The notes below the pieces were generated by a model that was given only the letters and a program-made list of their open reading frames with translations, ran no database searches and was not told the DNA's origin. DNA of 36,732 nt from Bacteroidota bacterium (GTDB lineage Bacteria; Bacteroidota; Bacteroidia; Bacteroidales; Paludibacteraceae), in assembly GCA_030706455.1 (NCBI GenBank), contig JAUZOL010000015.1, forward strand, positions 1 through 36,732, in the 5' to 3' direction. Below are positions 11,619-36,732 of this stretch, piece by piece. Both the position numbers and the translations under genes were made by a program. Numbering within the stretch: the stretch's first letter is position 1; each line of letters starts with the position of its first letter.

Positions 11619-13691
11619 TTACTGTTCGTAATTTTGATGCCGTATTGTATCGGTGCGTATCAAATATTCCAGATTGTTTACCGGACGCTCGATTTCATAC
11701 GGGATCGGCATCTTACTATATTCCTGAAAATAAAGCAAACAACCATCTTTCCACAGCTGAGCATTCCGGCTTTGACTCCGCAGTTTACTCTGGACTTCAA
11801 CAAACCGTTCCGCATCAACATAAGATTGCACTGTATCCCAAATCTTTTGGAACTCTCGCACCTGATGCAGGCCTTTGTCATAGCGATAACACAATTCGTT
11901 CCACAACGAACGACCACTCTTCATCTTGAAACTCCAGGGCACATGATGAAACCACAACAAATACTCGTCCGGACAAGTCTGAATGTTGTCGAACAAAGTA
12001 TGCAAAGGTTCGTGATACTGGCTGACGGCATCACTACCGGTATGAGTTCTGTCAAATCCTACTCCGACGGTATCAGCCTGATGATAATATGGGGGTGTCC
12101 AATCCTTTCTCATTCTTTTCGGAGCCCACCACGGACCAGGACCATAGTGTTCATTGGCAGACATAATGTGATGCAAACCAAGTGGCATCATATAATTTAC
12201 AGCAGCTTCCCTGCTGTCGAGCATCATCTGCTTTACCGGGGTTAAAAAGTTGGTTTGCCAATCGCTGTTTTCAACAACAGTCCGTTGAAATGTCAGCTTA
12301 AGCCATTCATCTGCAATTTGCGCGCTCGTCAGTTTATTGTCCCACGCCAATCGACCAAATGCATACCAATTGGACTGAGCAAACTGATGTCCGCACCAAT
12401 TTACGTCCAACCCCACATTGGCAACTCCTGCAATGGCTGTATGTTTTTGAGGAAAGAGGCTTCCATCCGTACAACGGGCAACAGTGCTCCCCTCACCGTC
12501 CTGATAGGTGTCGCTTTTCAAAAATTCCTCCCACATGGTGGAAAGAAAAACCAAATGGATGGAATGTCCTAAATATTCCTGTGTAATCTGAACCTCCGGC
12601 ATCAGCGATGTCTTCCTCATTGCTCCGAACAACGGGCTGAACGGTTCGCGGGGCTGAAAATCAACCGGCCCATTCTTCACCTGAATGATTACATTATCGC
12701 GAAACTGCCCATCCAATGGCAAAAATTCTTCATAAGCCTGCTTCGCACGATCGTTATCCGATGCGCTGTAAACAAATGCCCGCCACATCACGATTCCACC
12801 GTAGGGTTTCAGCGCATCGGCCATCATATTTGCGCCATCGGCATGGGTTCGCTTGTAATCCTGAGGACCCGGTTGGCCTTCGCTGTTTGCTTTCACCAAA
12901 AAGCCGCCAAAATCAGGAATCATTGCATATATTTCCTTCACTTTGACCTGCCACCATTTTATTACGGACGGATCTAAAGGATCGCAGGTTTTTAAGCCTC
13001 CAACCTGAGACGGAGCTGAAAACTTAGCCGATAAATAAACCTTCACGCCATAAGGGCGGAACTCGTCTGCAATTGCCTTAACGCGCTTCAGATATACATC
13101 TGTCAATATATCTGCATTGGCATTCACATTGTTGAGTACAGCCCCATTTATGCCGACTGATGCATTTGCCCGTGCATATTCTTGCCAGAGTTTTTTGTCG
13201 GCTTCGGTAACATTCAATGAATCTTTGGTGTTTCTCCAAAAAATAGAACGTCCCGCATAACCTCTTTCAATGGTTCCATCCTGATTATCCCAGTGGTTCA
13301 GGACTCTACGCTCATATGACGGATTAAAGACTCCCCGGTTGATCGTTTCTCCCGTTTGCTGGTGGCGCAAAAGATCATACACCCCATACAAAACGCCCAA
13401 ATCGGTATTTGCCTGAACTCCTTCCGGAGTCAATTTATACCCATCTCCTTTTACCTGTTTATCCTGTTTTACGATAAGTTTGACGGAAGCTCCGGGTTGT
13501 CCCTGCCAGCCATTCTGCAACTCTTGCTTTGCGACCTCTATCACTGCCGACTTTTTACTACACACCACACTAACAGGCGAGGGACTCTGATATCGCAGCC
13601 AGAGCGAATGGCCATTTTCAGCCTGTAAATTCACGGAAAGAAAAAACAATATCAAGAAACCCGATACAATCTTTATCATCTCAATTTTCAT
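11619..13691 (-). CDS. aguA: GH67 alpha-glucuronidase
   Basis: The protein has 690 residues, the normal size of GH67, with a signal peptide (hydrophobic 7-24, ending LQAENG). After the start of the mature protein (GHSLWLRY) comes the N-terminal domain, then the barrel with FLVKANSEGQPGPQDY (Glu271, acid), IQVKNGPVDFQPREP (Asp344) and ITQEYLGH (Glu372). These match the acid Glu292 and the base pair Asp365/Glu393 of Cellvibrio GlcA67A. The motif GVANVGLDVNWCGHQF is also typical of the family. GH67 enzymes release 4-O-methylglucuronic acid from the terminal non-reducing xylose of xylo-oligosaccharides, so this gene is the strongest single pointer to glucuronoxylan as substrate. It is separated from the upstream GH43-CBM32 gene by a 204-bp gap containing two stem-loops. 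Confidence 0.94.
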   Translation of the reverse strand: MKIEMIKIVSGFLILFFLSVNLQAENGHSLWLRYQSPSPVSVVCSKKSAVIEVAKQELQNGWQGQPGASVKLIVKQDKQVKGDGYKLTPEGVQANTDLGVLYGVYDLLRHQQTGETINRGVFNPSYERRVLNHWDNQDGTIERGYAGRSIFWRNTKDSLNVTEADKKLWQEYARANASVGINGAVLNNVNANADILTDVYLKRVKAIADEFRPYGVKVYLSAKFSAPSQVGGLKTCDPLDPSVIKWWQVKVKEIYAMIPDFGGFLVKANSEGQPGPQDYKRTHADGANMMADALKPYGGIVMWRAFVYSASDNDRAKQAYEEFLPLDGQFRDNVIIQVKNGPVDFQPREPFSPLFGAMRKTSLMPEVQITQEYLGHSIHLVFLSTMWEEFLKSDTYQDGEGSTVARCTDGSLFPQKHTAIAGVANVGLDVNWCGHQFAQSNWYAFGRLAWDNKLTSAQIADEWLKLTFQRTVVENSDWQTNFLTPVKQMMLDSREAAVNYMMPLGLHHIMSANEHYGPGPWWAPKRMRKDWTPPYYHQADTVGVGFDRTHTGSDAVSQYHEPLHTLFDNIQTCPDEYLLWFHHVPWSFKMKSGRSLWNELCYRYDKGLHQVREFQKIWDTVQSYVDAERFVEVQSKLRSQSRNAQLWKDGCLLYFQEYSKMPIPYEIERPVNNLEYLIRTDTIRHQNYEQ

Positions 13692-13786
13692 GGTTAGAAC
13701 AAAAGGGTAATTACTTCACAGGGTTCCCTGCAAATTCAGCTATAGTTGAATCCTTCAATGCCCGACTGTTGAGTGCAATTAAAAGG

Positions 13787-13839
13787 AAACAGGATGACAT
13801 CGGCACTTTATAATACAAAGGTCGATGAAGATCCTGTTT
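13787..13839 (-). promoter_or_regulatory. Long stem-loop upstream of GH67
   Basis: Arms of nine bases (13787-13795 with 13831-13839) continue, after a small internal loop, into five more pairs (13798-13802 with 13823-13827) around a 20-nt apical loop. In the minus-strand RNA it is followed by a pyrimidine-rich stretch (GUUUCCUUUU). It could be a weak terminator or attenuator, or an mRNA-stabilising element, between the GH43-CBM32 gene and GH67. Confidence 0.5.
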
Positions 13840-13847
13840 ATCATTTC

Positions 13848-13884
13848 TAATTATCCACATTTTTGTTCTAAATTCGGATAATTA
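13848..13884 (-). promoter_or_regulatory. Stem-loop just after the GH43-CBM32 stop codon
   Basis: Perfect nine-base arms (13848-13856, TAATTATCC, with 13876-13884, GGATAATTA) enclose a 19-nt loop, beginning 11 nt after the stop codon of the GH43-CBM32 gene. The stem is A/T-rich and no U-run follows. Together with the hairpin at 13787-13839 it forms a tandem pair in an intra-operonic gap. Confidence 0.45.
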
Positions 13885-13895
13885 TAGGGGAGATT

Positions 13896-15632
13896 TTACT
13901 CCTGCTCTATCACTTTATCCCCTTTAGTAATGCCATTTTCGTTGAATGCGTCGACTACAAAATAGTATTTCTGCTTACTGTTCAGATTACCGATTGTAAC
14001 AGAGTTCTTTCCCAGAATTTGATAGTTATTATATAATTTATCTTTCTGTGTTCCGTATCTGACATTGTAACCTACGATATCCTGCTTGGACGGCCAGCTC
14101 ATTTTCACTACACAACGATCGATTTGGCTGCGTACAGCATCAACCTTATCGGGTGCTGTGGGAGCTTTTCCTCCTGCATTCCCGAATACGCGCAACCCTG
14201 CCAAAGCAAACGTACCGTCAGCCATGTGATAGTTGGTCAGTCGTACATAACGGGCCTTCACCGGCATTTTCAGCTCGATATAATCGTGGGGAACATCCGT
14301 CGTATTTTTGGTTTTATCCGCCAGCGGTTTCCAGTTTGTACCATCGGTAGAATATTCGAGCAGGTATTGATAATAAATGCCCGGTTTGCGCCCCATGGTT
14401 TTGGTATTATTTTCCGCAAAATTGATCTGCACGGCATTGATCGTACTCAATTTTTGCAAATCCATGGCAATCCACTCACCTTTGTTACCTGTTTTAGCAC
14501 TCCAGAAGGTTCTGATCTCCTCATCGGCAGCATACCGTGCCGGATGTCCCTGCAACTCGGAGGATGCAGCAACAGGTTTGTTGTGCGAGAGAAGCATCCA
14601 TTTCGGGAACAACTCTTCGGGACTGCTGATCTTCTTATTGGGCACTTTATACGGAAAATCTCCGAATCCGGTGTAAACGTACATCACTCCATCATTATCA
14701 AAAAACGTTGGGAACAAGCCCAAACGACGTTCAAACATATGTTTTTGAGAAATCGTCATGGTCGATATATGCCAATAATTGCCATAGATATCCTGAAACG
14801 TACTGCTGTGACCGGCTGCCGCAACAAATCCTTCCGGTTTTGCAGAAACAGGATTATGTGCAGCAACTGTAAACGGACCCAGCGGTTTGTCGGAAACATA
14901 CACCCCATCGCAATAACTCTTGAACTGTGTTCCGGGAACCGCATATTGCAGATAATACTTTCCATTGTGCTTTGTCATCCACGAACCTTCCACCCACGGG
15001 CTCTCGTCCTTTTCATTGTAATCACCAAAACGTTCCCATCCATGCTCCTTTTTGTTACTATTGAACAAAGCAATTGGCTGACCGATGGGATTCAATGTTT
15101 TAGCATCAAGTTCAACGGCATAAATCGGATTTTTATTCGAACAGCCATAGTAGAAATACAGGCGCCCGTCATCATCCAAAAACAGATCGGGATCTGTCAT
15201 TCCAATAGGAAAAGCAGCATTGGCCACACTCCATTTTCCTGATTTGAGATCACCGGTTTTATAAATAGTCAATGGGGCATCGTTCTTTGACGCCATGAAA
15301 TAGAGAGTATCTTTCATCACCACAGCAGTAGGTGCATAATCTTCTATCGGCAAATCCTTTGTCGTTATCAAATCCCAATGAATCATATCTTTCGAATGAA
15401 AATAACCTCCTGATTTGGAAGCAAACAAATAGTATTCATTCTTGAAAGTAACCATAGTAGGATCGGCAGCCTCACGCCTTGACGGAGCATCGAGACAGAA
15501 GCGATAACTAAGATTCATCGGATTGCAAATAGTTGTCTGAGAAGGTTTATTCACAGGCTTATTTTGCCCGAATGCTGCAAAGGCGCCCAGAAAACAGGCA
15601 AGGATAACGGATGTTTTTCTGAATGGTAACAT
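13896..15632 (-). CDS. GH43-like hydrolase with F5/8 type C (CBM32) and FnIII domains
   Basis: The protein has 578 residues from the ATG at 15632 (signal peptide MLPFRKTSVILACFLGAFAAFGQ). The frame is open to 15785, but that extension overlaps the end of the CE1 gene, so I reject it. The five-bladed propeller (about 36-345) has base Asp57 in EAADPTMV, Asp147 in MTDPDLFLDDDG and acid Glu215 in WVEGSW, the GH43 catalytic set. A discoidin/CBM32 domain follows at about 350-485 (TFWSAKTGNKGEWIAMDL, ARYVRLTNY) and a fibronectin type III domain at 490-575 (VKMSWPSKQDIVGYNVRYG). It starts 14 bp after the CE1 gene. Probably an arabinofuranosidase or beta-xylosidase that docks on polysaccharide; subfamily and linkage are not certain. 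Confidence 0.86.
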   Translation of the reverse strand: MLPFRKTSVILACFLGAFAAFGQNKPVNKPSQTTICNPMNLSYRFCLDAPSRREAADPTMVTFKNEYYLFASKSGGYFHSKDMIHWDLITTKDLPIEDYAPTAVVMKDTLYFMASKNDAPLTIYKTGDLKSGKWSVANAAFPIGMTDPDLFLDDDGRLYFYYGCSNKNPIYAVELDAKTLNPIGQPIALFNSNKKEHGWERFGDYNEKDESPWVEGSWMTKHNGKYYLQYAVPGTQFKSYCDGVYVSDKPLGPFTVAAHNPVSAKPEGFVAAAGHSSTFQDIYGNYWHISTMTISQKHMFERRLGLFPTFFDNDGVMYVYTGFGDFPYKVPNKKISSPEELFPKWMLLSHNKPVAASSELQGHPARYAADEEIRTFWSAKTGNKGEWIAMDLQKLSTINAVQINFAENNTKTMGRKPGIYYQYLLEYSTDGTNWKPLADKTKNTTDVPHDYIELKMPVKARYVRLTNYHMADGTFALAGLRVFGNAGGKAPTAPDKVDAVRSQIDRCVVKMSWPSKQDIVGYNVRYGTQKDKLYNNYQILGKNSVTIGNLNSKQKYYFVVDAFNENGITKGDKVIEQE

Positions 15633-15646
15633 AGATTGGGAATGGT

Positions 15647-17578
<1,932 letters not shown>

Positions 17579-17581
17579 TTA

Positions 17582-18484
17582 TTATTCTATTAATTTCATA
17601 CTCTTCATCCATTGAAACAGAGGCTCCATCCAACCCTTGTGTCCAAATACAAATCCGTGCCCTCCCTTGGGATAAATGTGCATTTCAACGGGGACATTAT
17701 GATGTCGTAACGCTTCAAAATAAACGATACTGTTATCCACATCAACCGTCCTATCATCGGCGGTCTGCGTAATGTATGCCGGGGGAGTAGCTTCATCTAC
17801 CTGCAGTTCGTTGGAATACAAATCGACGGTTTCTTTGCTCGGGTTATTCCCCAACAATTGAATACGCGATCCACTGTGAGTCAATTTCTCCTGCATTGAT
17901 ATCACAGGATAAACCACAACCTGAAAATCAGGCCGCAAACTGGTATTGTTTGTATTTTCAATCAAAGCTTTCTTGAAATGAGTGGCTTCGGTTGAGGCTA
18001 AATGGCCTCCGGCCGAGAAACCCATGATCCCGATCTTATTCGGATTAACACCCCATTTTGCAGCATTTTCACGTACCACTTTGATGGCTTGTTGCGCATC
18101 CTGCAATGGTCCGATTGATTTGTCGTTCATAATGGCATCATCCGGCAAACGATATTTGAGTACGAAAGCCGCTACTCCGTTTTTAGCCAACTCTTTGGCT
18201 GTCATAACACCTTCGCCGCTATACACAATCACACTGTAGCCGCCACCGGCACAAACAACGACTGCGGCTCCGGTTTCCTTTCCCTTTTCGGGAAGAAAAA
18301 CCTCAAGCGTAGGAGTGGTTACATTACGATACATTCCATTACCAAAACTCTCTTTTTCCAAAGTCGTCTCAGCTACTTTCGAATTAGGAACACCTCCATT
18401 ATATAACGGAATAATTTCCTGTGCACCTACCGACGGTAAGGCCACAAGGATGAAAGTAAATAGGATTAATAATTCTTTTTTCAT
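17582..18484 (-). CDS. Exported alpha/beta hydrolase, BD-FAE-like acetylxylan/feruloyl esterase
   Basis: The protein has 300 residues from the ATG at 18484, which starts the signal peptide MKKELLILFTFILVALPSVGAQ. The frame runs on to 18529 without adding sensible sequence. Landmarks of the BD-FAE/acetylxylan-esterase-like branch are VVVCAGGGYSV (76-86, oxyanion loop), GFSAGGHLAS (Ser157), TADDRTVDVDNS (Asp244) and YPKGGHGF (His276), giving a complete triad. It lies between the GH8 gene (105-bp gap) and the tandem CE1 gene (15-bp gap). It probably deacylates acetylated or feruloylated xylo-oligosaccharides in the periplasm; the exact ester is not readable from the sequence. Confidence 0.88.
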   Translation of the reverse strand: MKKELLILFTFILVALPSVGAQEIIPLYNGGVPNSKVAETTLEKESFGNGMYRNVTTPTLEVFLPEKGKETGAAVVVCAGGGYSVIVYSGEGVMTAKELAKNGVAAFVLKYRLPDDAIMNDKSIGPLQDAQQAIKVVRENAAKWGVNPNKIGIMGFSAGGHLASTEATHFKKALIENTNNTSLRPDFQVVVYPVISMQEKLTHSGSRIQLLGNNPSKETVDLYSNELQVDEATPPAYITQTADDRTVDVDNSIVYFEALRHHNVPVEMHIYPKGGHGFVFGHKGWMEPLFQWMKSMKLIE

Positions 18485-18589
18485 GTGAGCATATTGTTGA
18501 ATCCCTTGAAAAACAATGGCAAAGCTCATGCCGAAAACAAGACCAAGTCAATTATTCCGTCAAAGAGCTTTAGTGATATTTTGTTATAC

Positions 18590-19909
18590 TTATTTATGAT
18601 TTAATTGCGGCTTAATTATCTGATAATTACCACTTAAATGCATGATAGCAAACAGATAAAGCAATCCATCGTAGTAGGGATCAAAATAACCATCCTCATA
18701 GGGTTCCAGTTTGGCATTCCACAATGCATCCACAAACTTCCAGCTTTTGGGTTGAGTTCCCATGATAGAGGCTGCGGCAGCAGTTGCCACAAAACCTAAG
18801 GAATGGCGTAATTTTTTAAATCCTCCTGCTTGCAAAATAAACTCAGGATGGGTGCCATCTATATTATACTGATCTACAAAGGAATCGATTCCTTCTTGAA
18901 ACAGAAAATTCTGTATTCTTTTGGAGTAATCTTGCTGCCATTTATTGTCTTTGGCAAACCAGGAATAATCCATTGCAATATTCATCGGCACTCTCCAAGA
19001 ATCGTACCGGAAAGCAGCCGGCATCCAACGTGGAGAACGTATCTTACCGTCAAAATCGGTGTAGTCGGCATTCAGGCCTGTAACCGGATGACATGCCTTA
19101 TGAAGATAAACTCTGGCTGAATCGGCACAATCGCGATAAAACTGTTCGTGCCCATCTTTGCCATACTCAGCCCAGATTTCAAAAAAAGCAGGTAAATTGT
19201 AGGAAGGATCGGTCCAATTATATCCATAATTGTCCGGAGTAAAAGTAATTAGCTTATGCTCAACATTCATGAGGTTTTTAACGCCTCCTGTGCCATTCTT
19301 ACTCCACATGGCATCAAGAATCTTTTTTGCTTCGGCATAATAATTTATACCGGTATCATTTCCCCAACGGTTGGAGGCAAATAAAAGGTCGGTTATAAAG
19401 TAGAGTTCACCGTCAGATGCAGATCCCTCCGAGTTATGTTTCAAAGTTTTAGGATCGATACTCCAGGCAAAATAAGCATCATGAGGGCCACCATGATGTT
19501 GCAAGTATTTGCTTGTCCATCTCCAGATACGATCAAAAACGTCTTTTTTATTCAGTTGTACGGCAACCATCATACCGTATGAAAGGCCTTCGGTACGTGC
19601 ATCATGATTTTTAACGTCAGAGACATAAGCCATAGAATCACCCACCTCAAAATACACTTTATTAGGGCCTTCAAATACATCATAATATGCCTTTGCTAAT
19701 TTGGCATCAATCTCTGACGGCTTATATCCTGCATCCTTAAACACATTACGATACTTGCCTGTTTCCCATGCTCCGTTAGACCATGGAGTCATTTTCCCTC
19801 TGGAATCTTTAATGTTTTGTTTTGAATTAGTAGTTAATTTGTTCTGCTGTCCATACAGCGGCCCAAACATCAGAGCCGTAAAAAAAATAAGGAACCCAAT
19901 CTTTTTCAT
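18590..19909 (-). CDS. GH8 reducing-end xylose-releasing exo-oligoxylanase (Rex) type
   Basis: The protein has 439 residues with a signal peptide (MKKIGFLIFFTALMFGPLYGQQ). The (alpha/alpha)6 barrel of GH8 is shown by TPWSNGAWETGKYRNVF, the acid block DARTEGLSYGMM (Glu107), SASDGELYF (Asp166) and FRYDSWRVPMNIAMD (Asp303). Glu107 and Asp303 correspond to the acid Glu70 and base Asp263 of the Bacillus halodurans Rex enzyme. The overall resemblance is to Rex rather than to GH8 cellulases or chitosanases. Such enzymes trim single xylose units from the reducing end of xylo-oligosaccharides. It is the first gene of the enzyme run and has a promoter-like element directly upstream, with a terminator about 85 bp before its start codon, which suggests it begins its own transcript. 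Confidence 0.88.
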   Translation of the reverse strand: MKKIGFLIFFTALMFGPLYGQQNKLTTNSKQNIKDSRGKMTPWSNGAWETGKYRNVFKDAGYKPSEIDAKLAKAYYDVFEGPNKVYFEVGDSMAYVSDVKNHDARTEGLSYGMMVAVQLNKKDVFDRIWRWTSKYLQHHGGPHDAYFAWSIDPKTLKHNSEGSASDGELYFITDLLFASNRWGNDTGINYYAEAKKILDAMWSKNGTGGVKNLMNVEHKLITFTPDNYGYNWTDPSYNLPAFFEIWAEYGKDGHEQFYRDCADSARVYLHKACHPVTGLNADYTDFDGKIRSPRWMPAAFRYDSWRVPMNIAMDYSWFAKDNKWQQDYSKRIQNFLFQEGIDSFVDQYNIDGTHPEFILQAGGFKKLRHSLGFVATAAAASIMGTQPKSWKFVDALWNAKLEPYEDGYFDPYYDGLLYLFAIMHLSGNYQIIKPQLNHK

Positions 19910-19926
19910 TGTTTATTGTTGTTTTT

Positions 19927-19934
19927 CAAAGATA
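19927..19934 (-). promoter_or_regulatory. Putative -7 promoter element of the enzyme operon (GH8)
   Basis: The minus strand reads TATCTTTG, a full match to the Bacteroidetes -7 consensus TAnnTTTG, 17 bp upstream of the GH8 start codon. The start point would leave a leader of about 10 nt. No TTTG at the -33 position is evident. The 13-base sequence TTATATATCTTTG (19927-19939) is identical to that upstream of the HTCS gene (30218-30230). Confidence 0.45.
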
Positions 19935-19993
19935 TATAAAACCGCGCCATAAAATATTTTGGCACGTCGCTTCATTTATTTTAAAAAAATAAA

Positions 19994-20022
19994 AAAGACC
20001 CCTACCTCCCGTAGAGGTCTTT
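19994..20022 (-). terminator. Intrinsic terminator upstream of GH8
   Basis: Twelve-base arms (19994-20005 and 20011-20022) enclose a 5-nt loop, with one U-G pair on the minus strand that is a mismatch on the plus strand. In the minus-strand RNA the stem is followed by a long U-rich run (UCUUUUUUAUUUUUUU). It comes after another terminator 350 bp upstream, so it should end a second transcript that begins between the two. Confidence 0.75.
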
Positions 20023-20250
20023 CCTAAAAACCTTTCTAATAAAACTACAGTCTTAGTTCCTAACTAATACCTATATCTTGAACATAAAATATGAATTTTC
20101 ACACATCAATTTTTCACATCAATAACCTGTCAAGATATTGCAAAAGGTTTTGTTCGTAAGTCAAAGCTGTATGTTCTGCCTCTGCAATTTCAGAAATTGA
20201 ATCTCGATTTCCGATTCAACTTGTTCGTTGATTACTCTAAATCAAGACAA
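20023..20250 (-). ncRNA. Candidate small RNA between two terminators (speculative)
   Basis: A TATGTTTG element (20248-20255) matches TAnnTTTG and would start a minus-strand transcript at about 20240, ending at the terminator 19994-20022, so about 220-250 nt. A TTTG lies 15 nt upstream of the element, shorter than the usual spacing. Near the 5' end are two stem-loops: CAATTT/AAATTG around 3 nt (20185-20199) and seven-base arms TTGAATC/GATTCAA (20197-20219); they share bases and exclude each other. No known RNA family was recognised. Confidence 0.3.
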
Positions 20251-20373
20251 ACATACAAGCCTTTTATTTTCAAATTGCATAATATAACCTGATGGTTGTA
20301 TTATAAATAATACTGTACTTATTTTTCTCTTTATACTAAGATTCAAAAACAGATCTTTGTTGAATATCAAATT

Positions 20374-20434
20374 AAAAGAAAGGAAAGAGTAGCCATTCCA
20401 AACCTTTGTTACGGCTATCTTTCCCTTCTTTTTT
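20374..20434 (-). terminator. Intrinsic terminator after susD
   Basis: A long hairpin of about 20 base pairs (arms about 20374-20394 and 20413-20432) has one bulge and one G-U pair in the minus-strand RNA, and a loop of about 18 nt. It lies about 55 bp after the susD stop codon. The minus-strand RNA ends in UUUCUUUU; on the plus strand a run of seven T also follows, so it could work both ways, but no plus-strand gene approaches it. Confidence 0.7.
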
Positions 20435-20488
20435 TAAGTGTCAAGTAAACATTTCTGTTTCCAAAAAACGTTCTATAAATATTTACGA

Positions 20489-22309
20489 TTATTTATAAGC
20501 TGCATTTTGGTCACACAATGGGTTCTTCATCAACTCGTCAGTTGGAATTGGCATATCCATTTTCTTGATATCGAAATCAAAGTCACGATATGTGTGATAG
20601 TCATCCCATACTAAAGGATCATCATTTTTATGACCTACCCCTTTAGGATAATTGTGAGTAATATGATCTTCGATATAGCCTGAACGGATTAGATCCGGAG
20701 CTAAACACCATTCTGCATTAAATTCTCTACGACGTTCTTCGCCTAAAGCTACCAACCAAACCGGAGATGAGAAACCCTTCTGAGATTTCAATTGGGTATA
20801 ATAAGTCTTAGCATCCGGTACAGTAACCGCAGCTGTATTGAACGGAAGTGGATAACTGGTCAATGCTGGTGCTTTAAAGAATGTAGCAAGCTGATTAAAA
20901 TAGGGAAGATATGTAGAGGTCAATTCATCTGCATGACCAACTTCCAAATTACCCCACGCACGATCACGAATTTGCTTAACGATATCCCAAGCTGTTGCAT
21001 CATCTGCATTCACACGGAATAAGCATTCTGCATAGTCTAACAATACATTAGCATAACGTTTGTAATAAATCTGCTGTGCACCCCATGGAGCCACGTAATT
21101 TGAGCGGGTAGAACGCCAGTATTTATTTGTCCAAACTGCAGGAGCAGCTTCTCCATTCATGTTATAATGATAATGAGTATTCAAATGATCACCAGGGTCA
21201 AGGCTTTGTTGCAAATAAGGATGGTAACCGTAGTTGGTTGTTGATTTCAAGGCCGGATCGATGTTAGCAACAGGGGCTGTTACAGCAGATGCCTCACGAC
21301 GTTTGTCCCCCGATTCATAACAACTCCACCATTCCCAAGAGAGATACAATGTGCCCCATCCACCAAGAGCAGGACAGGCTGTAAACTGTACCATCCAGTT
21401 ATGAGCCTGTGACAGGTTAGACCATTGGTTCCATTGTGAGCCTTCGTCAAGAACTTCTTCCCAAATACACTCTTTTGTCCAAACAGCTCCCGGATCAAAC
21501 AACGTAGTGAATGATCTATTCAATTCGTATTTTTTACTATCAATTACTTGTTTTAATGCTGCAGCTGCTAATGCATAGTTTGCTGTAGCTTCAGTCGGAA
21601 CTTTATATGCTTTCCACATGTATGCTTCTCCAAGGAATGAAAGAGCAAAACCTTTGGTAATACGGCCATATTGACCATCCATTGGATCCCAGTCAAGTTC
21701 ATCAGCGGCAATTTTCAAGTCGTCAATAATGAAATTCCACATTTCATTATAATCTTTTGCACGGGCTTTTGCCGGTGTGTTAATGTAGTCTTCACCGGTA
21801 GCCAACATAGGTACGCGACCAAACGCCTTTGCCAGCCACATGTAAAAGAACGCACGAATACCACGTGCCTGACCATCCAAAGACTTTTTTAAAGCAGGCG
21901 TAATAGTATTTGGATCTGACTTTGCAAGACCGGCAAGAAAATCATTACAACGAGTAATTGCGTTGTAAGCATGTTTCCAACCTGACAATAACTCAGGACT
22001 ACCTGCTGTCCATTTCTGTTGGTTCCAGTCCTTATCCCAACCTGTTGCCTGTGTATCCATTGTAGGGTGGCCACCGATAAACAAGTTCGGCTTGATACCC
22101 CAGTCTCCGTCAGTTGCATCAGGCAGCATCATTGTGTAACATCCAACAAGTCCTCCCTTAGCATTATCCACTGTTTTAAACATCTGATCAGCAGCCAAAA
22201 TAGTAGTCTGATCTATCTTTAAAAAGTCCTTACTATCACAGGAGTTCATTCCAATAAGGAATAAAGCACCAATAAGGGTGAAATATAATATTTTTGAAAT
22301 TTTTTTCAT
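20489..22309 (-). CDS. SusD/RagB family outer-membrane glycan-binding lipoprotein
   Basis: The protein has 606 residues from the ATG at 22309. It opens with a lipoprotein signal (MKKISKILYFTLIGALFLIGMNSC, lipidated Cys24) followed by DSKDF. SusD landmarks follow: FLKIDQTTILAADQMFKTVDNAKGGLVGCYTMM, then the helical TPR-like core (HAYNAITRCNDFL, ARGIRAFFYMWLAKAFGRVP, AKARAKDYNEMWNFIIDDL), and the C-terminal ALGEERRREFNAEW with DLIRSGY. It is the surface lid of the SusC transporter encoded just upstream (27-bp gap) and would bind xylan oligosaccharides. The frame extends nine codons upstream to 22336 without signal-peptide character, so I use the inner start. Confidence 0.94.
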   Translation of the reverse strand: MKKISKILYFTLIGALFLIGMNSCDSKDFLKIDQTTILAADQMFKTVDNAKGGLVGCYTMMLPDATDGDWGIKPNLFIGGHPTMDTQATGWDKDWNQQKWTAGSPELLSGWKHAYNAITRCNDFLAGLAKSDPNTITPALKKSLDGQARGIRAFFYMWLAKAFGRVPMLATGEDYINTPAKARAKDYNEMWNFIIDDLKIAADELDWDPMDGQYGRITKGFALSFLGEAYMWKAYKVPTEATANYALAAAALKQVIDSKKYELNRSFTTLFDPGAVWTKECIWEEVLDEGSQWNQWSNLSQAHNWMVQFTACPALGGWGTLYLSWEWWSCYESGDKRREASAVTAPVANIDPALKSTTNYGYHPYLQQSLDPGDHLNTHYHYNMNGEAAPAVWTNKYWRSTRSNYVAPWGAQQIYYKRYANVLLDYAECLFRVNADDATAWDIVKQIRDRAWGNLEVGHADELTSTYLPYFNQLATFFKAPALTSYPLPFNTAAVTVPDAKTYYTQLKSQKGFSSPVWLVALGEERRREFNAEWCLAPDLIRSGYIEDHITHNYPKGVGHKNDDPLVWDDYHTYRDFDFDIKKMDMPIPTDELMKNPLCDQNAAYK

Positions 22310-22336
22310 AACGCTTATTGTATTTATGTATAACAA

Positions 22337-25300
22337 TTAGAATTGGACATTCAAACCTAAAGAATAAACACGTGGCATAGGATAACGGCCTGTGTCTAAC
22401 CCTGTATAGAGAACGCTACCTTGTCCGGCTTCCGGATCACCATATTTGTTATAGGATGAGATGCAAAGTACGTTTTGAATAGACGCGTTAACACGCATAC
22501 TCTGGAGACGAAGAGCTTTCAACACTTTCTTATCGAAACTATAACCCAATTGAATTGTTCCAATTTTGAAGTAATCGCCATCTTTAAGCCATGCATCAGA
22601 ACCGCGCATGTTGTAGTTCTTATCAAGGAATGACAATCTTGTATAGGTACCATTGGTATTTGTAGAAGTCCACGCATTTTTAGCAACTTCATTCAAAATA
22701 TTCGGTGTAGTACCATTATCACTCGGGAACATGTTCGTTAAAGTCATAGCAGAATAAGAATAGATTTGTGCCCCGGACACACCATATCCGTATACCATCA
22801 TATCAAAATTCTTATACGAAGCGGTGATGGTCAATCCATAGTTAAGTTTTGGGAATCCATTACCCAGAACAGTCATATCCTTTTCATCAAGGAACCCATC
22901 ACCATTCAAATCTTTAAATTTATAATCACCGGGAACAGTAGCTGAACCATTGTTGTATCCGGCTGAGTGTCCGGCTGCTTTAGCTTTTGCGTTATCAGCA
23001 TCGATCTCTGCCTGATTTTTATAGATATGATCTACCTTGTAACCATAGAAAGAACCTACGGCATATCCGTCACGCATAATAGAGTGGTTGTTCCAGTGTG
23101 TTCCGGAAGGTGCACCTATTGCACCCTGGTTAGAACCATCGCCAGAAGCGTCTGTGTTTTGATAGAATATATCGTTTCCAAGATTTTTAATTTTGTTTTT
23201 AATGCTTGAGCCCGTCACCGTAGCTCCGATATTCCAATCTTTATTCAATTGTTTCTTATAATTAATGCTGAATTCGATACCTTTATTGCTAATTCCACCC
23301 AAGTTTGTATACACTTTTTCGTAACCTGATGATGGACGGATGTACAAATTATTCAACAAATCTTTAGCGTCGCGGGTAAAATAATCCACCGTTATATTCA
23401 AATTGTTATTTAACAATCCAAGGTCAATACCGATATTTTTTTGTTCATTCGTTTCCCACTTCAACTTAGGATCAACCAATGTTTTAGCTGTACCAACGAC
23501 TGTAACTTTCGAAGAAGATCCGGCACCTAAAACTCCGTTTTGGGGATAAAAATTATACATAATATTAGATGATGTTAATGCAGGTGTGGCAAAATCACTA
23601 TTCATATTACCTGCATTTCCGGTTTGTCCCCATCCCAAGCGAAGTTTAAGGTTGCTGATAGCTGGGAAGTTTTTCATGAAATCTTCTTCCGAAATACGCC
23701 ATGCAGCAGCTGCCGAAGGGAAAGTTCCCCATGTGTTATCTGGTCCAAATCTCGAAGAACCATCCCGACGAATAGTACCGGTTAAAATATAACGATCCTT
23801 CAAGCTATATTGCATACGACCAAAGTAAGATAGATTATGAACGTCCAAATTATAAGCCCCATCACCAGTTCTTGCAGTAGCAAGATTAGTCAAAGAGATA
23901 GAACGGATGTTATCGCCCGGAAAATCATTACCGGAAGCGTTACTCCAGTTACCGAATTCTTTGCTTACAGAATTACCAGCCATAAGAGTCAAATTATGAA
24001 TAGCATTCTTCCAGTTGTAAGTCAAATAACTTTCAATCTGAGTTGTATTATAGTTACTGTTGTTGATACCCAGATTATATTTTGTATCATAGTTAACCAA
24101 TGTAACCTGTGTTATACCATCAGGCATGTAACGTTTTTTATTACCCCAGAAGTTATACCAGTTATTTGCAGAAAAATTATATGATCCTACAGTTTTAAAT
24201 GTCAACCCTTTCATCAATTTAATATTGGCATAAGCACTGATAATTGTCTGGTTACGCTTTGTTTTTCCAGTTTGCTCCATCTGCTCAGCTACAATATTAT
24301 TGCCCAAATTACCATCGTACACACTTGTTCCCTGCATTGGTGTACCATAAGTTCCATTTGCATTTTTTACATTCGGGCTTACATAGGCACCAGTCGAGGG
24401 ATCAATATAATCCATCGTGGGACATAAGAAAGCCCAGTCGCGGATAGAAGATAGGTTACCATTGTTACCAATACCTGCATTGTTACCATAAGATTCGCTA
24501 TGAATAAAATTGATATCACCACCAATTTCAAGGAAATCTGCTACCTTAGTTACGGTACTAGCACGTCCGGTTAAACGTTTAGCATTTGAATTAATAACAA
24601 TACCGTCATGATTCAAATAACTTAAAGAGAAGTATTGTTGAGTTTTTTCTGTTCCTCCCTGTGCTGAAAGAGTATATTGTTGTCTGAGGGCAGGACGTGT
24701 CATTTCTTTTTGCCAGTCGATGGTCTTTCTTTTGCCATCATACTGAGCAGAAAAAATTTGATTTACAAGATTATTCCCATCGTTAACACGTGCTTGACGA
24801 ATATTTCTTGCATACTGGTCAGCATCACCTACATCCAGTTTTTTAGCCAGATTCTGAATACCGTAGTCCGCTGTAAAAGTAATGTGTGCAGAACCTACCG
24901 AGCCATGTTTGGTTGTAATCATAACAACACCATTGGCACCAGCAGAACCGTAGATAGCAGTTGCAGAAGCATCTTTCAAAATTTCCATGCTTTCTACATC
25001 ACTTGGGTTAAGGAAGTTGGCATCTTTACCAACAACAACTCCATCAATTACATACAACGGTTTGGAATCACCATTAATAGTGGCGACACCACGGATTTGA
25101 ATAGCGCTGTTTGCATCAGGAGAACCGTCTTGTGCTGAAATTACAACACCCGCAGCCATACCCTTCATACCTTGAACGATATTGGTCGGAACTTTCCTCA
25201 TCATTTCTTCTTTATTCACAGAAACTACCGAACCTGAGATGTCGCTTTTTTTGGATGTACCATACCCAACAACAACAACTTCGTCCAATTGTTTTTTATC

Positions 25301-25654
25301 TTCTAATAAAACAATCTTCAGATTCTGACTTTTTGAGTTAATGGCAACTTCCTGTTGCAACATCCCAATATAAGAAACAATAAGAGTTTGATTTTGATCT
25401 GAAACAGAAAGGGTAAATTGACCATTTACATCTGTCACAGTTCCCTGTGAGGTATTGCCTTTGACAATAACGGCGGCTCCAATCAAAGGTTCTTGTTTTG
25501 AGTCGGTAACAACCCCTTTGACTATGTGTTTGTTTTGAGCATATGTGCATATGCTCACGGATAACATCATCAAAATCCAAATTTTTTTCAGGAACAATTT
25601 CGTTCTAAACTGTAGAAAGAAACTAATTGATGAAATCTCACAATTTTTCTTCAT
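22337..25654 (-). CDS. SusC/RagA family TonB-dependent outer-membrane transporter
   Basis: The protein has 1,105 residues from the ATG at 25654 (another in-frame ATG is at 25690). The signal peptide is unusually long, about 40 residues, with a charged n-region before KKIWILMMLSVSICTYAQ. Next are the carboxypeptidase-D-like regulatory domain (about 43-118, VKGVVTDSKQEPLIGAAVIVKG), the TonB-box region (LDEVVVVGYGTSKKSDISGSV, 123-143), the plug (about 145-250, with RGVATINGDSKPLYVIDGVVV and SATAIYGSAGANGVVMITTK) and the 22-strand barrel ending in SLGLNVQF with a terminal Phe. It forms the transport complex with the adjacent SusD and should import oligosaccharides across the outer membrane. Upstream lies a 579-bp gap after the HTCS gene, suggesting a regulated promoter. 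Confidence 0.95.
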   Translation of the reverse strand: MKKNCEISSISFFLQFRTKLFLKKIWILMMLSVSICTYAQNKHIVKGVVTDSKQEPLIGAAVIVKGNTSQGTVTDVNGQFTLSVSDQNQTLIVSYIGMLQQEVAINSKSQNLKIVLLEDKKQLDEVVVVGYGTSKKSDISGSVVSVNKEEMMRKVPTNIVQGMKGMAAGVVISAQDGSPDANSAIQIRGVATINGDSKPLYVIDGVVVGKDANFLNPSDVESMEILKDASATAIYGSAGANGVVMITTKHGSVGSAHITFTADYGIQNLAKKLDVGDADQYARNIRQARVNDGNNLVNQIFSAQYDGKRKTIDWQKEMTRPALRQQYTLSAQGGTEKTQQYFSLSYLNHDGIVINSNAKRLTGRASTVTKVADFLEIGGDINFIHSESYGNNAGIGNNGNLSSIRDWAFLCPTMDYIDPSTGAYVSPNVKNANGTYGTPMQGTSVYDGNLGNNIVAEQMEQTGKTKRNQTIISAYANIKLMKGLTFKTVGSYNFSANNWYNFWGNKKRYMPDGITQVTLVNYDTKYNLGINNSNYNTTQIESYLTYNWKNAIHNLTLMAGNSVSKEFGNWSNASGNDFPGDNIRSISLTNLATARTGDGAYNLDVHNLSYFGRMQYSLKDRYILTGTIRRDGSSRFGPDNTWGTFPSAAAAWRISEEDFMKNFPAISNLKLRLGWGQTGNAGNMNSDFATPALTSSNIMYNFYPQNGVLGAGSSSKVTVVGTAKTLVDPKLKWETNEQKNIGIDLGLLNNNLNITVDYFTRDAKDLLNNLYIRPSSGYEKVYTNLGGISNKGIEFSINYKKQLNKDWNIGATVTGSSIKNKIKNLGNDIFYQNTDASGDGSNQGAIGAPSGTHWNNHSIMRDGYAVGSFYGYKVDHIYKNQAEIDADNAKAKAAGHSAGYNNGSATVPGDYKFKDLNGDGFLDEKDMTVLGNGFPKLNYGLTITASYKNFDMMVYGYGVSGAQIYSYSAMTLTNMFPSDNGTTPNILNEVAKNAWTSTNTNGTYTRLSFLDKNYNMRGSDAWLKDGDYFKIGTIQLGYSFDKKVLKALRLQSMRVNASIQNVLCISSYNKYGDPEAGQGSVLYTGLDTGRYPMPRVYSLGLNVQF

Positions 25655-25926: not shown

Positions 25927-26233
25927 AATAACAAACTTTACGCAAAAATTCATGGCACCAAAATCGCAATCCTATAAAAAAACAATAACAAAAACGGATA
26001 AATCATCATTTAACTCGTAACATACAGGATGCAAAAATGGGATTTTAAATTATATTAAACATGCAAATTTGGATATTTATATTTTAAATTTGAATAAAAG
26101 CCCATATCAAACATAAATCTAACCACAACGCCCCCCACACACAAATCCAATTCACATTACTATTATTCAGCCGATTAAAAAAGTCACAAAGCTCAAACAA
26201 CAGACCAATTTCTATACAATACAAAAAAAGGCT

Positions 26234-36632: not shown

Positions 36633-36638
36633 GTAAAA

Positions 36639-36732
<94 letters not shown>

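Follow-up and report, generated by a model that had tools for sequence, protein, structure and literature searches.

The strongest feature of the gap between susD and the GH8 gene is an almost invariant block at 20151–20026, directly before the second of two hairpins, which the first-pass annotation of this DNA had overlooked when it proposed a small RNA between them. This block is very likely a conserved non-coding element. Judging from its sequence and boundaries, we see about an even chance that the minus strand of the gap carries the gene of an independent small RNA of ~166 nt. Such an intergenic RNA would be restricted to the genus and belong to a glucuronoxylan PUL. Positions refer to the window, that is, the whole stretch of 36,732 nt that was analysed (contig C57 of a source genome of 4.0 Mb in 340 contigs), and the features are collected in Table 1.

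Table 1. Features of the susD–GH8 gap and its neighbours, in the order of transcription
Feature	Position	Strand	Basis
susD gene, upstream of the element	20489..22336	-	Pfam PF07980 and PF14322
First hairpin, following susD (probably a terminator or the susCD 3'-end hairpin)	20374..20434	-	Fold, conservation
Candidate -7 element of the proposed RNA, CAGCTTTG (both congeners: TAGATGTG)	20162..20169	-	Aligned three-species scan
Proposed small RNA, ~166 nt	19990..20155	-	5' end inferred from promoter-like site and conservation boundary
Conserved core, 126 nt	20026..20151	-	121/126 identical to G001, 122/126 to G005
Closing helix P1, 5' arm AAAACCUUUU	20142..20151	-	Invariant in three species
Invariant direct repeat TTGATGTG-AAAAA-TTGATGTG	20102..20122	-	Sequence and consensus fold
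Closing helix P1, 3' arm GAAAGGUUUU	20027..20036	-	Pairs with 5' arm; invariant in three species
Second hairpin, intrinsic terminator	19990..20026	-	Terminator scan; in G005 both partners of one pair differ
GH8 promoter motif (-7), TATCTTTG (TACTTTTG in both congeners)	19927..19934	-	Aligned scan
GH8 gene, downstream of the element	18590..19909	-	Pfam PF01270, E 7.1e-24

The main genes of the window lie on the minus strand and encode a hybrid two-component sensor, SusC, SusD, GH8, esterases and GH43, and also GH67, a SASA-type esterase, GH43, GH3 and GH97. Given what is established for these enzyme families, we read the set as that of a glucuronoxylan PUL. The susC–susD–GH8 order is the same in the congeners G001 and G005, and the element lies between the same genes in all three carriers.

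The first 58 nt of the core are invariant across the three species. The core as a whole is 96–97% identical, compared with 65% (101/156 in both congeners) at the four-fold degenerate sites of GH8 (Fisher test, P = 1.7e-11 and 3.1e-12 for the two congeners); at the four-fold sites of susD, 155/232 (G001) and 61/175 (G005) are identical. The adjacent non-coding flanks are identical at 156/185 and 147/185 positions, which is significantly less than the core (P = 0.0013 and 5.5e-6). In the stretch that separates the core from the first hairpin, identity to the two congeners is 93% and 73% at 20373–20256, and 85% and 76% at 20255–20153. Across the 8.7-kb three-way alignment, the core is the best-conserved non-coding window of 126 nt (0.952), and among the top non-overlapping windows it is exceeded only by coding windows of an esterase (0.968) and of GH8 (0.960); a coding window of susC is similar (0.944). 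Maxima in three other aligned intergenic regions of the window were 0.841, 0.833 and 0.889, and the intergenic stretch 13895–13692 nearly matches the core (mean 0.898); the contrast with other intergenic regions is thus clear but not vast. Of the six variable columns of the core, two retain pairing through G-U in the consensus model, and the other four fall outside its pairs.

The terminator that the first-pass annotation had placed near 19994–20022 on the minus strand is borne out by our scan, in which 20026–19990 was the top of the 19 terminator-like sites listed for 15000–25000 (mean of 7.0 sites in shuffled sequences), with 16 pairs and a T tract next to them. Its orientation, which had been deduced from G-U pairs, also stands: such pairs exist in the minus-strand RNA. 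One G-U pair is replaced by A-U in the congeners, and one A-U pair by G-C in G005. The proposed end of the susD transcript at 20374–20434 fared less evenly. The hairpin there is very stable (20440–20366, -31.4 kcal/mol, z = -7.05, with 0/200 shuffles as good), and its identity to the two congeners is 98% and 93%, but it is absent from the list of the terminator scan for 15000–25000, which we read as an effect of the U-run inside its 3' arm. The earlier argument, by which two terminators in a row imply a transcript start between them, was too strong, since a tandem arrangement can also deal with read-through. A run of 47 invariant nt (20409–20363, including TTAATTTG) takes in the 3' arm of the first hairpin and what follows it, while the 5' arm varies; the run may have an additional role, for example as a promoter or a processing site. 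A hairpin terminator resembling that of the element directly follows another susD of the same genome (L131, 1721–1875; Pfam PF14322 and PF07980).

The start of the invariant block coincides with that of the closing helix P1 (20151), and P1 closes just before the terminator. As a helix of 10 bp, P1 has a duplex energy of -8.9 kcal/mol, which was equalled by 4/2000 shuffles, although its ends were picked after viewing. The second copy of TTGATGTG lies inside a predicted 17-nt hairpin loop of the consensus fold. The whole 166 nt (20155–19990), terminator included, folds better than all of 200 shuffles (z = -3.88), and much of this quality is owed to the terminator; the core without it is slightly better than shuffles in the three species (33, 40 and 41 of 500 as good), and the inner folds of lowest energy differ between species. 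A covariation search, recommended in the first-pass annotation, did little for the element: all 52 pairs of the consensus model are kept in the three sequences, a single compensatory pair lies in the terminator, no core pair is changed on both sides among the three species, and the covariation counts are not above those of shuffles (172/500). Because the counts are no better than chance and the inner folds differ, we base the case for the element on how well it is conserved and where it begins and ends, and leave covariation aside.

We scanned the aligned susD–GH8 region for TAnnTTTG, allowing at most one mismatch per species, and obtained four sites. The site at 20169–20162, which departs from the motif at one position in each species and lies below a conserved TGAAATTGCAGA block, would put the 5' end of the RNA near 20155, or up to four bases earlier with another spacing of the -7 element, just before P1. 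We regard this as a lead only, as sites as good occur at 29 of 8614 aligned columns. Among the same 8614 columns, the only TAnnTTTG that is perfect in all three species is 19934–19927, which starts 25 nt before the ATG of GH8 and whose two free bases vary between species. If this motif is the GH8 promoter, the second terminator would not gate the start of GH8. The RNA is therefore probably not needed for GH8 transcription, and the conserved motif after the terminator favours an independent small RNA over an attenuator of GH8. The motif is not beyond doubt, because the 5' UTR that it implies is short (~11–14 nt), whereas the available text of PMC7366714 gives 23 nt as the commonest 5' UTR length in B. 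thetaiotaomicron, with few below 10 nt.

The promoter-like element TATGTTTG on which the first-pass annotation had relied (20255–20248, minus strand) is present and kept in G001, but it is lost in G005, and its motif is not enriched (45 TAnnTTTG found in the window versus 38.15 expected); it is probably not the promoter. The TATGTTTG at 26115–26108, before susC, is lost in both congeners too. The small stem-loops noted at 20185–20219 do exist, but the stretch 20245–20152 folds barely better than shuffles (34/500), and the surrounding 20255–20153 has the identity given above. In place of the transcript of 220–250 nt suggested earlier, one of ~166 nt (20155–19990) from the weak promoter-like site at 20169–20162 is likelier. 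A small RNA that ends at the second terminator survives as the best reading, and such an end is likely on sequence grounds, but what supports it is conservation and the GH8 motif, not TATGTTTG or the 5' stem-loops. We also considered a palindrome, GCCA...TGGC at 19946–19963, as an operator and rejected it: three are found in the window versus 1.68 expected, and the congeners have a one-base change in its spacer.

The minus strand holds no open reading frame of at least 20 amino acids within 20155–19990, and in a frame of 11 codons in the core, the differences between species are amino-acid replacements only. A 42-aa minus-strand frame between the hairpins (20370–20242) was rejected as a gene, with stops interrupting it in both congeners. 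The proposed RNA has two of the properties by which high-confidence intergenic sRNAs are defined in the available text of PMC7366714, namely a 3' intrinsic terminator and an intergenic position without a coding frame; towards another, a transcription start site with read coverage, the sequence offers the weak promoter-like site at 20169–20162.

The region was present in two (G001 and G005) of the seven congeners searched. In a first search of 61 genomes (the own genome, the seven congeners and others of the family or order), 28 had some match at E ≤ 0.1, and full-length matches were confined to the own genome, G001 and G005. A DNA search of 358 genomes of the family gave some match at E ≤ 0.01 in 26; the element was covered in three, the own genome included (E ≤ 9.1e-54), and the other matches listed were short (E ≥ 3.8e-4). 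When six of the short-match loci were aligned to the element, an AT-rich stretch was all that they had in common. With a covariance model, 30 of the 358 genomes reached E ≤ 1, the three real loci at 192–201 bits and the other listed matches at 36.7 bits or less. Of four such loci inspected, L122 and L026 align mainly at the terminator and lack most of the core, whereas L131 and L132 fit over the full length but weakly, some pairs being broken; the L131 match overlaps the end of another susD. Among the best 80 of 253 GH8-linked loci, a strong match was obtained only in L025, the locus of G001; L026 matched at the terminator, and the rest had E ≥ 0.9. The own genome contains one full-length copy and four short matches (E 0.01 to 0.5). 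Viral contigs gave no match to one exact 21-mer, and plasmids gave none to the element. In Rfam, the only match of the window to reach its gathering score is a partial 5S rRNA at the end (36637–36732), with none in the element region; the 12 sub-threshold matches in 19900–20500 are all far under the gathering scores of their families.

The GH8 gene occurs in four of the eight genomes of the genus, and three of these four carry the element. It was not found before GH8 in the fourth, G006, where the terminator before GH8 is similar to the second hairpin (27/34 nt). The 79 nt before that terminator, a cut picked after viewing the fold, fold better than most shuffles (10/500 as good), and the corresponding figure for 126 nt is 9/500; this stretch may correspond to the element in position, though not in sequence.

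The conserved domain could act in cis, as a riboswitch-like attenuator of GH8: with P1 formed, the terminator would stop transcription, and an alternative pairing, between AGGUUUU in the 3' arm of P1 and AAGACCU in the 5' arm of the terminator, would allow read-through into GH8. In favour of this reading, P1 abuts the terminator, conservation spans the whole core and not a seed alone, and the short 5' UTR implied by the GH8 motif leaves that motif in some doubt. The antiterminator pairing is available in all three species (-5.6 to -5.7 kcal/mol), but it is not clearly above chance (156/2000 shuffles as good). The place of the domain and terminator ahead of GH8 fits an attenuator, but GH8 need not depend on read-through, since the sole three-species-perfect TAnnTTTG follows the terminator. 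Two further findings tell against an attenuator: no Rfam family matches this region at its gathering score, and no element was found before GH8 in G006. A covarying aptamer at many loci is not what we found, with the element in 3 of 358 genomes and no core pair changed on both sides, and we consider this reading unlikely. Alternatively, the gap may encode no functional RNA, the tandem terminators closing the susCD transcript and insulating separately promoted GH8 genes, and the block serving as a control region at the DNA level. The similar second hairpin of G006, which lacks the element, fits this explanation, as do the promoter motif of GH8 itself and the direct repeat TTGATGTG, which could be a protein-binding site. 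However, 126 bp at 96–97% identity would be long for an operator, the block runs from P1 to the terminator, and the terminator separates it from the GH8 promoter motif; we rate this explanation, too, as improbable.

Read-through from susD could also be processed at or near the first hairpin to leave a stable 3'-derived RNA that ends at the second terminator. The scan did not call the first hairpin a terminator, its 3' arm with the next bases is the 47-nt invariant run, and the stretches between the hairpins are partly conserved. They are less so than the core, however (93%/73% and 85%/76%), and we hold such processing to be quite unlikely. Similarly a long shot is that glucuronoxylan PULs of the genus have a structured RNA of a new class of their own. 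The whole branched domain of 126 nt, and not a seed alone, would then be constrained because it binds a protein or a product of xylan breakdown, and the RNA would link uptake by susCD to the cleavage of xylo-oligosaccharides by GH8. An independent, trans-acting intergenic sRNA is the best-supported mechanism, by analogy with Bacteroides and given the weakness of the alternatives. Such an RNA would start near 20155 from a weak promoter of the sigma-ABfr type, its 126-nt core is predicted to fold into a branched domain closed by P1, and it would end at the terminator 20026–19990. It may act post-transcriptionally on messages for glycan uptake or use, like trans-acting sRNAs of Bacteroides, and the conserved TTGATGTG repeat, partly in a loop, would be the likeliest site of contact with them.

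Target prediction against the susC leader, which the first-pass annotation had advised, gave pairing with the susC start or leader that was not beyond chance. Duplex energies with the 17 gene starts in the window were unremarkable, the best being equalled by 17/200 shuffles (gene 35213, uncorrected for 17 tests), and that of the full susC leader by 40/200; the duplex program returned long gapped duplexes, which makes it a poor test of targets. At 11 gene starts, the seeds conserved in three species comprised one 8-mer (susC), compared with 1.75 in shuffles (146/200 had as many), and none of at least 9 nt.

To our knowledge, RNA control of PULs has been described mainly from Bacteroides, in the form of antisense RNAs and of the FopS and GibS sRNAs. 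A conserved sense-strand RNA gene in the gap from susD to the first enzyme in Paludibacter would extend it to environmental xylan degraders; the interest of the candidate lies chiefly in its being a well-delimited target (~166 nt) outside Bacteroides. The FopS sRNAs of Bacteroides, as far as described in the available text of PMC11697453, have intrinsic terminators and a tie to PUL control, and in terminator and PUL setting the candidate is alike. They are ~65–70 nt long, with 14 members in B. thetaiotaomicron and a single-stranded 5' seed, according to the same text (PMC11697453), whereas the candidate has ~166 nt, one full-length copy in its own genome and an end closed by P1. A relationship to FopS was rejected: local alignment to the published 35-nt seed scores 20, which 750/1000 shuffles equal, and the seed R1' is not shared by the candidate in this comparison. 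Like the candidate, GibS of B. thetaiotaomicron is a stand-alone intergenic sRNA in the account available from PMC7366714, but it differs in its single-stranded 5' seed and in having known targets, while our searches found no target for the candidate. DonS-type antisense RNAs are likewise encoded within PULs; in the available parts of PMC7366714 and PMC10994844 they are divergent and antisense to susC homologues, whereas the candidate lies between susD and GH8 and, by the orientation of its terminator, on the same strand as susC, susD and GH8. The intra-operonic (inter-CDS) sRNAs of B. thetaiotaomicron resemble it in being intergenic and in that they may end at an intrinsic terminator; the accessible portion of PMC7366714 reports six of them, in another genus, and the likeness is one of description. 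We found three RRM-domain matches in the own genome. RbpB, an sRNA-binding protein, is of the RRM-domain type (PMC11697453, available text), so that such proteins are permissive for sRNA function here, not evidence of it.

Several further observations concern the rest of the locus. In G005 (L106), the four-fold sites are 48% identical to those of the window in susC, 35% in susD and 65% in GH8; the divergence of susC and susD, exceeding that of GH8, suggests that the susCD part was exchanged between lineages. The intergenic stretch between GH43 and GH67 (13692–13895) is 90% identical in the three-way comparison and contains a hairpin, TAATTATCC...GGATAATTA, and a palindrome, CAGGGAACCCTG; it could be another conserved non-coding element, though G005 diverges little in this area (92% identity over 13568–17512). 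The longest three-way invariant run, of 59 nt (25683–25625), includes an ATG at 25654, which we read as in frame with susC and which is probably the start of this gene, in place of GTG 25690 of the mechanical ORF. In the susC leader, the aligned scan found no TAnnTTTG perfect in all three species. Upstream of susC, at about 26040–26110, lies a conserved AT-rich block with repeated CAAATTT, which may be the operator of the hybrid two-component regulator.
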